Assembly: GCA_012270595.1 (NCBI GenBank)
Contig: JAAXIA010000101.1
Coordinates: 1 to 10,965 of the forward strand
Reading direction: 5' to 3'
Origin: Rhodanobacteraceae bacterium
Lineage (GTDB): Bacteria; Pseudomonadota; Gammaproteobacteria; Xanthomonadales; Rhodanobacteraceae
Length of the DNA stretch: 10,965 nucleotides
The position numbers were made by a program, and so were the translations under genes. The notes under the pieces are model-generated. The model ran no database searches. It was not told the origin of the DNA and saw only the letters and a list, made by a program, of their open reading frames with translations. Positions 1 to 8,030 of the stretch are shown piece by piece (position 1 is the stretch's first letter; every line of letters starts with the position of its first letter).

Positions 1-1147
1 CTGAATAGATCAGAGATTCCCTAAGTGCATGCAGGCGTTCATGATCCAGGGCATCGTGCTGCCATGTTGTTTTTTCAAGGTGTGCAGCCTTGTAAGCTTT
101 TCTTAGTTGATGGAAATATTGGGCTTCAAAAAAAGTCTTGCTTTCGGGGTCATGTTTTTCATTATCAGACTTTTTGCTTGGCCGGTACGAGCACAGGTTA
201 AAGCGTTCATCATTGCTAATCTCCAGTGCCGTTCTCATTTGCTTGTAGCTGAGCTTGCTCGTTTCAAAAGGCAGTCGCGCACATTGTCGCCTTTCCTCAG
301 AGGAGAGTGGACGACTTTCACGTGGACCTTCTATCTTGAGATTATTGAGTTTTTGCCATAGGGAAAAACGCTCAAAATAAATGCTGGCTTTGGGTATGCG
401 TTTCTCTTGAGGTTCGAAGGTGCATGTGCCGACCATTTCAAGTAATTGTTCACCACTTAGCGCGGCCCGGCGTGACATCAGCAAGGTGTGAACCTCCTCT
501 TCAAGGATCCGGTCTGTATGGGGATTGCCCAGTGCACGCTGGCGCTCAAAGAGCTTTGCAAGTTCATGCTCAAGTTGACTACGATCAAAGGTATGCGTAT
601 AGCTACCTTCCTTGTTGCGTTTCTGCCCGGCAAAGCGGGGGTCTCGCGCTGCCAGTTCACCTACGGTGCGGTAGCCATCGTTTTCCATGACGTCCTGGTT
701 CTTTTGGACTCCGTTTAGCATCTCCCCGGCCTTTTGGTCGGTCTTAAGCTCAGACTTGCGGTTGGATTGAAAGCCGCGATGCTTGACCAGGTGATAAAGC
801 ACCGCCCCCCATTCTTTGGGCAGAAGTTGTCGATCCAGACCTTCGGCGCGCAGCTGCCAGCTGGTGATGGGCAAGTTGCGTAGCGTTTCGATCTTGCTAT
901 CGGGAAGAATCCCATGGCGCGCAAACGCTTCGCGTAGGCGCGTGAGCCGGTAAGCGCGGCGGCGTAGGCGGCGCCGAATGAGGCGGGCTTCACGGCGAAC
1001 CTTGTTGAGCGAATCACCTTCCTTGGCAGTTTCGGCCTTGTCGAAGGTTCTAACGTGCAGGGCCAGAATATTTTTTTGGGTGAGTAGTGCTGCACCGACC
1101 GAAGCGATACCAATATCCAGACCAAGGGTGTATTCGGGGGTTGTCAT
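1..1147 (-). CDS. cas9: Cas9, type II-C (N-terminal 382 residues; runs off left edge)
   Basis: RNA-guided DNA endonuclease of a type II CRISPR-Cas system. Reading back from the ATG at 1147-1145, the frame stays open for 382 codons to the window edge. Residues 9-18 (GLDIGIASVG) form the RuvC-I motif with catalytic Asp11. Residues 50-75 are the arginine-rich bridge helix (RREARLIRRRLRRRAYRLTR). KHRGFQSNRKSE at 122-133 and TCTFEP at 241-246 match the start of the REC lobe in N. meningitidis-type Cas9 (HRGYLSQRKNEG and HCTFEP, from memory). This points to subtype II-C of roughly 1,050-1,100 residues. The HNH, RuvC-II/III and PAM-interacting parts lie outside the window. The tryptophan usual after SVG is alanine here. 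Position 1147 is the only reasonable start near RuvC-I; the ribosome site is weak (GAGA about 9 bases upstream). There is no frameshift or stop in the visible part. I am confident of family and subtype, but activity is unknown. Confidence 0.95.
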   Translation of the reverse strand, partial: MTTPEYTLGLDIGIASVGAALLTQKNILALHVRTFDKAETAKEGDSLNKVRREARLIRRRLRRRAYRLTRLREAFARHGILPDSKIETLRNLPITSWQLRAEGLDRQLLPKEWGAVLYHLVKHRGFQSNRKSELKTDQKAGEMLNGVQKNQDVMENDGYRTVGELAARDPRFAGQKRNKEGSYTHTFDRSQLEHELAKLFERQRALGNPHTDRILEEEVHTLLMSRRAALSGEQLLEMVGTCTFEPQEKRIPKASIYFERFSLWQKLNNLKIEGPRESRPLSSEERRQCARLPFETSKLSYKQMRTALEISNDERFNLCSYRPSKKSDNEKHDPESKTFFEAQYFHQLRKAYKAAHLEKTTWQHDALDHERLHALRESLIYS

Positions 1148-1170
1148 GGCTATGTTCTCTAGATTAGAAT
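1141..1170 (+). promoter_or_regulatory. Probable tracrRNA promoter overlapping the cas9 start
   Basis: A -35 box TTGTCA (1141-1146, 5/6 to consensus) and a -10 box TAGAAT (1165-1170, 5/6) are separated by 18 bases. Transcription would begin near 1177, exactly where the anti-repeat of the tracrRNA starts. The -35 box shares bases with the cas9 ATG (1145-1147, opposite strand), so the two divergent units overlap at their 5' ends. This is inferred from box match and position. Confidence 0.65.
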
Positions 1171-1176
1171 GAGCGG

Positions 1177-1290
1177 CGTTGTAGTCTTCCGGGGTGAGAG
1201 CCGTTACTACAATAAGTTAGAGTACCAACGAGCCCGGTTCGCAGCAATGTGAACCTGAACAGGGTCCTGCTTGCAGGGCCCTGTTCTTTA
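1177..1290 (+). ncRNA. tracrRNA of the type II-C CRISPR system
   Basis: Trans-activating crRNA that pairs with crRNA repeats, allows RNase III processing and loads Cas9. The anti-repeat at 1178-1213 runs GTTGTAGT ... GTGAGAGCCGTTACTACAAT, followed by AAG. It aligns without gaps over 38 positions to the N. meningitidis tracrRNA as I remember it, sharing the TGAGA-CCGTT-CTACAATAAG blocks. Next comes a stem-loop at 1236-1255 (GGTTCGCA / TGTGAACC, one G-U pair) capped by a GCAA GNRA tetraloop. The RNA ends in a 14-bp hairpin at 1257-1286 followed by TTTA. It lies directly upstream of cas9, is transcribed away from it, and has a good promoter ending at 1170. Ends are approximate, about 114 nt. The anti-repeat ends (1179-1185 and 1206-1212) are themselves complementary, as expected for a repeat with GTTGTAG...CTACAA termini. 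Confidence 0.88.
1257..1290 (+). terminator. Terminator hairpin of the tracrRNA
   Basis: GAACAGGGTCCTGC pairs with GCAGGGCCCTGTTC through 14 pairs, including one U-G, around a two-base TT loop; the stem is followed by TTTA. The U-tract is short, but type II-C tracrRNAs commonly finish with such a stem, which may also contact Cas9. On the minus strand the hairpin is followed by AGGTTC with no U-tract, so it should not act as an efficient intrinsic terminator for hflD. Confidence 0.75.
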
Positions 1291-1343: not shown

Positions 1344-1985
1344 TCAGCCACTCTCCAGCGTGGTGCCAGTGAGCAGGCCGCGGGCAAGCATGCAGCAAGT
1401 GCGGCGGTGGAGTAGAAGTTGCCATTGCCTGCCGCCAACCTGTCGCCACAGTACCGCCGAGCGTATGGCGGCAAGCAGGCAGGCACGGATTTTTTCGACC
1501 ACGGCATCCTGTTTCAGACACTGTGGGTTGCCGTTGACCATGATGCGTGGCCGTAGCGTGGAGAGCGTCGTGCTGTAGAGCTGGGCCATACGGCTGATCA
1601 CTGGTGCCGAGATATGGCCGATATGTGCGACCTGACGCTGCACCGAAAGGATGCCTTGTTGTAGCGATTCGCGTAGATCGCGGCGACTGTTCAGGCGTCG
1701 TTCGAGGCGCAGTACCATCACGGTCATGCGTGGGACGGCCAGATCGCTGGGGGTGTTGTCCAGGTACTTGATGAGTGTGCGCAAGCCTAAGCGAACCTGG
1801 GATACCTGGCCGTATACGCCGACGACTGAGGGCGCGTTCAGGCGCAGTACGCTTTGCAGGCTGGCTTCTAGATCCTGTGCGTCGCAGCAGCCTTTGTTAG
1901 CCAGTTGCTGCGTGAGCGCGGTGGCTTGGAACAGGCCGGCAAGTGCGAGTACACGTTCTTCGTTTATGGCAAAACTTTCAAACAC
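1344..1985 (-). CDS. hflD: HflD, high-frequency lysogenization protein homologue
   Basis: Peripheral inner-membrane or cytoplasmic helical protein. In E. coli it is known for binding phage lambda CII and favouring its degradation; its native role is unclear. The 213 residues equal the E. coli length. Conserved stretches include LAGLFQATALTQQLANKG near the N-terminus, MVLRLERRLNSRRDLR in the middle, and RPRIMVNGNPQCL followed by IRACLLAAIRSAVLWRQVGG near the C-terminus, which match the E. coli protein closely. The start is GTG at 1985-1983 with only a weak ribosome site. It begins 12 bases after the mnmA stop, so it is probably translated from the same message; mnmA-hflD adjacency is common in gammaproteobacteria. 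Downstream lie the tracrRNA (opposite strand) and cas9 (same strand). Confidence 0.93.
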   Translation of the reverse strand: MFESFAINEERVLALAGLFQATALTQQLANKGCCDAQDLEASLQSVLRLNAPSVVGVYGQVSQVRLGLRTLIKYLDNTPSDLAVPRMTVMVLRLERRLNSRRDLRESLQQGILSVQRQVAHIGHISAPVISRMAQLYSTTLSTLRPRIMVNGNPQCLKQDAVVEKIRACLLAAIRSAVLWRQVGGRQWQLLLHRRTCCMLARGLLTGTTLESG

Positions 1986-6966: not shown

Positions 6967-7040
6967 CATTTTTTGTCACAATGTATGCACCAGGTCACGG
7001 TTACGTCAGGCGTATGGTTTGCGGCCATGGAGGAGGAAAC

Positions 7041-8030
7041 GTGAAAGGGCACGCCTGTAGATTTTTTATTATGTCATGGTGCGATCAATGTTGCCGGCGT
7101 TTCTGGTCGGTTGTCTTTCTCCTTGAGATCATGTTTGCGAAAATCAGGCGCTTCCTCTTTCATAGGGGACATGCAAATGATGCGAAGACGGTGCACAAGA
7201 AGGCGGCGCACAAATTGACAGTGCGTATCGAGTTTCCTTATTCCAGCCGCCCTCCTTTTCTATGGACAAGCTCACAGCTATGTATTGGCAGCGCTGGCGA
7301 TAACGATCTGGTTGTGGTGACCGGGCAGGTCAGGGCACACCATCTCCTTTTAAAACGTGATGCTGCCAGCATCTGGGTTCAGGTATTGCCGGAAGCAGGT
7401 CGCATCTATGTCAATGCGCGACCGGTGCGCGAGCGCGCCATGTTGCGCCTGGGCGACAGGCTTGGTTTCGGGATGTGTCATATGTTGCTCTGTGCTGAGG
7501 AGGATGCCACTCAGGGGTGGTTATGCCCAAGAGATGCCAAGCAGCGCTGTACAGCTGCACTCCGTGCTGTAGCCGGCCCGCTTTCTGGGCGTGTGCTGGC
7601 GCTACATGATCAACTCATGCTGGGTTTGCACGGTGATGTACCCTTGGAACTGCCGCAGGGGAAAACTATTGCCTTATCTTTGGGCTGGCGTGATGGGCAA
7701 TTGTGGCTGGACGGTGTCGAGACAGTACCCGCGCCTTATGTATTGCGTCGCAATGGCGTGGCATTACACAGGTCTACACAGCTGTTTCCCGGGGATCAGA
7801 TCGCCCTGGCGATGTATCGTTTCGTGATCGATGTGCCGGGGATGCAGGTAGAAGCGGTACGGGACAGGTCGCACCCGGCTGTTTTGCCGGATACGCGACA
7901 GGTGCCGGCCAGTTCACGTGGTGAGATAGGGTGGATTATTGTCACCGCTGCGCTGATTGCGCTTGGCATCACGTTGCTGTTGGCACGGCTTTACCATGGG
8001 CTAAATGTTCACTTTAACCCGGCTATGTGA
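7041..8030 (+). CDS. Membrane-anchored protein with two FHA-like domains
   Basis: I do not know a gene name for this 329-residue protein. Residues 60-150 look like a forkhead-associated domain: CIGSAGDNDLVV, then RAHHLLL, IYVNARPV and LRLGDRLGFG. Residues 180-267 look like a second, more diverged copy (GRVLAL, LSLGWRDGQLWLDG, VLRRNGVALHR, FPGDQIALAMYRF). In both, phosphothreonine-binding residues are altered: the GR-type arginine is Ser84, the S-R-x-H serine is Val97 (VRAH), and the NG asparagine-glycine is NA in copy 1. A hydrophobic helix (IGWIIVTAALIALGITLLLA, 296-315) sits 14 residues from the C-terminus, so the bulk is probably cytoplasmic and tail-anchored. GTG at 7041 follows a very strong GGAGGAGG site. 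The first 30 residues are cysteine-rich and hydrophobic, so an ATG at 7131 is a possible alternative. It ends 12 bases before serC, probably in one transcript. The function is unknown. Confidence 0.75.
   Translation: MKGHACRFFIMSWCDQCCRRFWSVVFLLEIMFAKIRRFLFHRGHANDAKTVHKKAAHKLTVRIEFPYSSRPPFLWTSSQLCIGSAGDNDLVVVTGQVRAHHLLLKRDAASIWVQVLPEAGRIYVNARPVRERAMLRLGDRLGFGMCHMLLCAEEDATQGWLCPRDAKQRCTAALRAVAGPLSGRVLALHDQLMLGLHGDVPLELPQGKTIALSLGWRDGQLWLDGVETVPAPYVLRRNGVALHRSTQLFPGDQIALAMYRFVIDVPGMQVEAVRDRSHPAVLPDTRQVPASSRGEIGWIIVTAALIALGITLLLARLYHGLNVHFNPAM

Follow-up and report, generated by a model that had tools for sequence, protein, structure and literature searches.

The window, the whole stretch of 10,965 nucleotides that was analysed, makes up all of contig C37 of a metagenome assembly (G000; 1.45 Mb in 213 contigs, 85.8% complete). 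At its left end lies the 5' part of a cas9 gene, and a tracrRNA is encoded next to it in the divergent direction (Table 1). Pfam domains identify the genes of the window as hflD (DUF489), mnmA, a NUDIX gene, clpS, clpA, serC and pheA, the names from hflD to pheA being our interpretation of those domains; this agrees with an earlier reading of the same DNA made from the letters alone (the sequence-only reading), which had placed cas9 and the tracrRNA beside a conserved housekeeping operon. A protein with an FHA domain (PF00498, PF16697) is encoded at 6981-8030 on the forward strand, with clpA on one side and serC on the other.

A type II-C CRISPR-Cas system on two contigs

The reverse-strand frame that runs from position 1147 to position 2 matches the NCBIfam Cas9 profile TIGR01865 (E 9e-78, profile positions 1-373 of 1070), and the Cas9 alpha-helical lobe domain of Pfam is also present in it. 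Its top matches in the PDB are compact Cas9 chains, 6je3 (E 5.6e-74) and 6jdv (E 7.2e-74), which we take to be N. meningitidis Cas9. The profile and the solved chains together bear out the proposal of a Neisseria-like type II-C Cas9 N-terminus. By the usual order of Cas9 domains, this part of the gene presumably encodes RuvC-I, the bridge helix and the start of the REC lobe. Full-length matches to Cas9 rule out a degenerate RuvC protein unrelated to CRISPR.

A search of the assembly for Cas1 located a second contig, C66, and on it the rest of the system. Its gene order is fabD-fabG-fabF-pabB-pabC-mltG-tmk-holB (names that are our interpretation of the open reading frames), then the CRISPR array, then cas2, cas1 and a C-terminal piece of Cas9, which reaches the right end of the contig. 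This piece aligns with solved Cas9 chains, its middle being matched by shorter, single-domain Cas9 chains. The remainder of cas9, cas1, cas2 and a repeat array were what the sequence-only reading had proposed to look for, and every one of them is present in the same assembly. The cas operon consists of cas9, cas1 and cas2 alone, without the csn2 of type II-A or the cas4 of type II-B. An orphan cas9 is ruled out by the presence of cas1, cas2 and the array in the assembly.

The repeat, GTTGTAGTTCCCTCTCTCACCCCGAAAGACTATAAT, is present twice around the single spacer, and no further copy was found in the assembly at up to three mismatches. A one-spacer array is by itself no sign of decay, since the array of one relative, L014, likewise has just two repeats.

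Table 1. Features of the CRISPR-Cas locus and its neighbourhood. Positions are those of the window unless contig C66 is named.
Feature	Position	Strand	Basis
Outer 20 bp of IS5-like element, reading GGAATCTCTGATCTATTCAG into the element	1..20	-	Motif recurs, 64 sites in all; contig ends here
4-bp target-site duplication, TTAG on the cas9 strand	21..24	.	Repeated beside the opposite IS end on C66
cas9, 5' part, 375 codons, IS-interrupted	21..1147	-	TIGR01865, PDB matches, blastp junction in 4 relatives
tracrRNA, divergent from cas9	1177..1290	+	Fold and similar RNAs in relatives
Anti-repeat of tracrRNA	1178..1212	+	Pairs with the C66 repeat (36 bp)
Middle stem-loop of tracrRNA	1236..1255	+	Fold
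Terminator-like hairpin of tracrRNA, then TTT	1257..1286	+	Fold and sequence
hflD, conserved neighbour	1344..1985	-	PF04356 (DUF489), E 1.2e-64; context, outside the CRISPR locus
CRISPR array	C66 9152-9253	Opposite to cas operon	2 repeats of 36 bp, one 30-bp spacer
cas2	C66	Opposite to array	TIGR01573, E 1.7e-22
cas1, type II	C66	Opposite to array	TIGR03639, E 4.6e-83
cas9, 3' part, 704 codons	C66 (L085:10572-12688)	-	TIGR01865 positions 389-1070, E 2.8e-155

The tracrRNA and its pairing with the repeat

The stretch 1177-1295 folds with a z score of -4.07, and none of 200 dinucleotide shuffles comes as low. Of 80 relative loci, the best of 119 encoding stretches, 78 have a similar RNA in the same place, directly upstream of cas9 and on the other strand; they were scanned, without shuffled controls, by a script that started from the GGTGAGA core. 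The two loci lacking such an RNA are L010 and L051, and in the latter the cas9 match begins 88 bases from a contig end. Rfam gave no match in the window at the gathering threshold, two weak matches lying below their gathering scores, so the identity of the tracrRNA rests on the relatives and on its pairing with the repeat.

The duplex between the anti-repeat and the C66 repeat has a predicted energy of -45.8 kcal/mol, compared with a mean of -14.8 and a best value of -26.5 for 1000 shuffled repeats. Fold, relatives and pairing thus uphold the suggestion that this Cas9 has its own tracrRNA beside it. The match between C66 and the window is not a specific one, because the repeats of three of the eight relatives tried (L002, L013 and L004) pair with the window tracrRNA as well or better. 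In all eight relatives the locus's own repeat and tracrRNA pair more strongly, at -51.0 to -55.6 kcal/mol, than those of the window and C66.

The window tracrRNA also carries about 19 extra nucleotides (1217-1235) before its middle stem when set against the four relatives that were folded (L002, L006, L013 and L014), in which this stem begins within a few bases of AATAAG. The displacement may reflect a diverged scaffold or decay.

What the two contigs hold is, as judged from sequence, what a type II-C system would comprise: a Cas9 with predicted RuvC and HNH regions, encoded by a split gene, together with cas1 and cas2, an array and a tracrRNA that pairs with its repeat. An uninterrupted cas9 frame, which interference would require, is not among these components, an IS end being found on both sides of the break in the assembly.

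Ends of an insertion sequence at the break in cas9

Reading outward, the window ends in TTAG-GGAATCTCTGATCTATTCAG and C66 in CTAA-GGAATCCCTGATCAATGGAT, the opposite termini of an inverted-repeat element. C66, too, stops after 20 bases of IS end, and its cas9 sequence gives way to them at the same codon as that of the window. Past the cas9 residues the terminal repeat reads GGAATCTCTGATCTAT on the window and GGAATCCCTGATCAAT on C66, and TTAG flanks both. The sequence-only reading had named in advance a break of the cas9 frame soon beyond the window edge as telling against it; the frame is in fact interrupted at codon 375 by the IS end, 20 bases inside the window. The Cas9 sequence printed with that reading therefore stands for positions 21-1147, but its residues 376-382 are encoded by the IS end at 1-20.

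The two pieces of Cas9 are continuous to the single codon. In blastp alignments, residue 375 of the N-terminal piece and residue 7 of the C-terminal piece meet on one and the same residue in four relatives: L002 (residue 448), L006 (381), L011 (415) and L013 (374). No Cas9 residue is therefore missing in comparison with these four. In L020 and L042, the other two of the six relatives shown, the N-terminal alignment ends at residue 363 and is uninformative on the junction. The ends of the two contigs have no exact overlap, and no contig seen spans the whole element with both flanks, so that we infer, rather than observe, that one IS copy joins the window to C66.

The terminal motif of the element occurs at 64 sites in the assembly, 54 of them exact and 10 with one mismatch (30 window-like, 32 C66-like and 2 mixed); a reversed-pattern control gave 0. 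Thirty loci of the 64 were fetched, and in every one the contig stops at most 191 bases from the start of the motif. The 4 bp adjoining the motif fit YTAR at 24 of these 30 ends (TTAG 7, CTAA 6, CTAG 6, TTAA 5), where chance would give about 0.5; the cas9 site itself accounts for two of the 24. The remaining six flanks are CTCA (twice), CAAA, TGAG, CTTA and TAAG. YTAR is given as the conserved target-duplication motif of IS5 insertions by Sheng et al., 2023 (PMC10359306).

The transposase profile PF01609 has 0 matches in the assembly, where the longest stretch of an IS end is 216 bp, and the internal transposase gene seems to be missing from the bin. We call the element IS5-like because it is identified by its ends and its target, without a transposase. 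Neither plasmids (blastn) nor the 14 further genomes of the genus gave a match to this 216-bp right end. On contig C143 (L133) the motif is found at 1685-1707, 1.7 kb inside the contig, without a recognisable element behind it; the flank of this motif, GCTGAAGTAGCTAA, is also present on C94 (L131) and C41 (L138), perhaps as a repeated or MITE-like target. The 64 motif sites lie in an assembly of 1.45 Mb that is 85.8% complete, and the 14 other genomes of the genus measure 2.9-4.2 Mb. The abundance of IS copies and the small size of G000 possibly reflect an IS expansion with genome reduction, or else an incomplete bin broken at IS copies.

We hold it to be very probable that this is a complete Neisseria-like type II-C locus in which cas9 was inactivated by one copy of the high-copy IS5-like element, inserted after codon 375 with duplication of TTAG. 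The joined locus would run array (forward), cas2, cas1 and cas9 (all reverse) and tracrRNA (forward), between holB and hflD. The insertion would split Cas9 within its REC lobe and presumably separate RuvC-I from RuvC-II/III, HNH and the PAM-interacting domain, if the usual domain order is assumed. Before the insertion the system would have worked as other type II-C systems do, the crRNA repeat pairing with the tracrRNA and Cas9 cutting DNA that matches the spacer. Interference has most likely been lost and the system switched off. We infer that any such loss would be recent, because both pieces of Cas9 are fully open.

The open frames can also be read differently. Both pieces align along their length with solved Cas9 chains, so that decay is at most recent, and cas1, cas2, the array and the tracrRNA are all there, as they would be if the system were intact and functional and the contig break an assembly artefact, or if the IS were present in a minority of cells. 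A metagenome-assembled genome is the consensus of a population, and for this reason cells with an uninterrupted cas9 may exist. An intact system nevertheless fits poorly with what the two contigs end in, namely the opposite termini of one high-copy IS, each flanked by TTAG. Nor does the assembly contain an uninterrupted cas9: an N-terminal cas9 query finds a single copy, and the match stops at the contig edge. We consider this explanation unlikely.

The number of IS ends in the assembly makes recombination between two copies plausible, in which case the two halves of Cas9 would be separate loci brought about by a rearrangement. Such an origin is very unlikely in our view, given that the flanking 4-mers agree and that the codon phase meets exactly. 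As YTAR stands for four possible words, the agreement of the 4-mers has a chance expectation of about 1 in 4, and a matching pair of flanks was compared solely at the cas9 site; the fit to a single codon is the stronger point, yet it is compatible with an insertion that was later rearranged.

Only the faintest of chances can be given to continued expression of the two halves and their assembly into a split Cas9, with the IS serving either as a reversible switch or as a tolerated break in a linker. The C-terminal piece does have an early in-frame ATG (a 663-aa open reading frame) and its frame shows no further decay, but the N-terminal frame would reach a stop codon after roughly twelve codons of IS sequence, to judge from the longer left ends L106 and L119, and a naturally split function is speculation. 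The variant in which the IS acts as a reversible or tolerated switch and the REC-split halves, separately expressed, reassemble on the tracrRNA with its displaced middle stem would be extremely doubtful.

Relatives and distribution of the Cas9

Thirteen relatives (L002-L014) have 52-59% identity to the N-terminal piece and 51-58% to the C-terminal piece; the remaining ones have about 40-44% over the N-terminal piece, apart from L064, where the wrong frame was cut, and L071, where the frame is partial. Trees of the N-terminal piece (support 100/100) and of the C-terminal piece (100) place both in the same 14-row Cas9 clade, each tree having 69 rows and covering 68 of the 80 relatives after exclusion of 12 with incomplete or wrong frames. 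The branch of the window is long in both (1.05 for the N-terminal and 0.82 for the C-terminal piece), and long branches are possibly misplaced.

Each of the 13 relatives has cas9 as one uninterrupted frame of 1059-1217 codons from stop to stop, and in their core the repeats and tracrRNAs of this clade are similar to those of C66 and the window. A script detected arrays in 10 of these relatives, with 2 to 39 repeats; none was seen in L005 or L007, and L009 is masked. The record titles of the clade name Rhodocyclaceae, Sulfurimicrobium, Thiobacillus, Rhodanobacter, Paraperlucidibaca and other bins. Among them are names from the alpha-, beta-, gamma- and deltaproteobacteria as well as one Alistipes bin. 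This spread makes transfer likely, although bins can be mixed.

Within the genus, none of the 14 other genomes has a match to this Cas9. Seven of 233 genomes of the family do, this one included; G182 is close (57%) and the others are at 26-48%. G182 is identical to L007 over the 4.1 kb compared. The Pasteurellaceae are gammaproteobacteria. The sequence-only reading had remarked that type II-C systems are uncommon in gammaproteobacteria, which holds for the genus and the family given here but not for the class as a whole, to judge from the many Pasteurellaceae in a published table of Nme1Cas9 orthologues (PMC9433092). Rhodanobacter is not mentioned in the literature on II-C Cas9 among the matches listed.

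Comparison with known systems

The locus resembles the type II-C systems of N. meningitidis and the Pasteurellaceae in having cas9, cas1 and cas2 only, a 36-bp repeat, a tracrRNA beside cas9 and a Cas9 of the same family. Its array runs opposite to the cas operon, and both gene content and array direction fit the description of type II-C in PMC3936727. It differs from the N. meningitidis and Pasteurellaceae systems in its IS-interrupted cas9 and one-spacer array, and from the other members of its own clade in the interruption of cas9.

Natural IS insertions in cas genes are documented by Sheng et al., 2023 (PMC10359306), who count 163 transpositions by 20 IS families. The present case is like those in that an IS with a target duplication lies within a cas gene; it is unlike those described in that text in consisting of two contig ends in a metagenome assembly, with no complete element. 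IS damage of this kind is thus already documented in other bacteria, and the system itself is an ordinary one. What our analysis adds is a further example from nature of CRISPR immunity disabled by a mobile element, if the reading preferred here is right, and a correction, as a gene that would have been recorded as a new Cas9 fit for use meets an IS 20 bases from the window edge. Where truncated genes lie at contig edges, a check for IS ends is warranted before they are called promising. For a Cas9 of the L002-L014 clade, the relatives with uninterrupted genes are better candidates, for example L013 (Paraperlucidibaca), which comes from a named strain.

Spacers, a second CRISPR cluster and solitary repeats in phages

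The single spacer of C66 has no exact match in viral contigs, no match in plasmids and, besides itself, no target in the assembly at up to three mismatches. When the C66 array was compared with phages, only the repeat or the terminator region was matched, among the matches listed (20 of 22). The sequence-only reading had supposed that this Cas9 may have its own PAM; these searches gave no target beside which a PAM could be read. From 10 relatives 158 spacers were extracted, and the arrays of L013, L011 and L012 were searched, in phages only. The L011 array had no match there. The L013 array matched through its repeat alone, in two microviruses, and the L012 array matched the same two.

A type I-G cluster lies on contig C199 (L086, 1-3664), with Csb2 and a Cas4-Cas1 fusion (TIGR02165, NF049935), after which an apparent start of cas2 is cut by the contig end. 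The Cas4-Cas1 fusion belongs to this separate cluster and not to the II-C operon. Since C199 is not among the sites of the IS motif, another type of CRISPR system may remain in the genome.

The two microviruses are complete genomes from rodent faeces, L150 (PQ006227.1, 3098-3136) and L151 (PQ007086.1, 3102-3141). Both carry one solitary II-C-like repeat in a stretch that separates annotated genes, and an ATG follows shortly after it. The repeat is identical to that of L013 at 31 of 34 bases, and its predicted duplex has an energy of -45.9 kcal/mol with the L012 tracrRNA and of -33.9 to -38.6 kcal/mol with those of four other loci. Solitary repeats that encode RNA anti-CRISPRs have been described (PMC10651486); in the main text of that paper the terms 'II-C' and 'Microvir' have 0 occurrences. 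The microvirus repeat is a putative anti-CRISPR RNA or tracrRNA decoy.

Two larger viral contigs from IMG/VR likewise have one match each to a II-C repeat, L152 at 718-751 (IMGVR_UViG_2710723518_000003) and L153 at 887-920 (IMGVR_UViG_3300042453_004886), in both cases directly before an ATG. The TACAAT in which these two repeats end could serve as a -10 promoter box; the microvirus copies are without it. A third viral contig, L154, found with a looser pattern, has two copies 69 bases apart and resembles part of an array.
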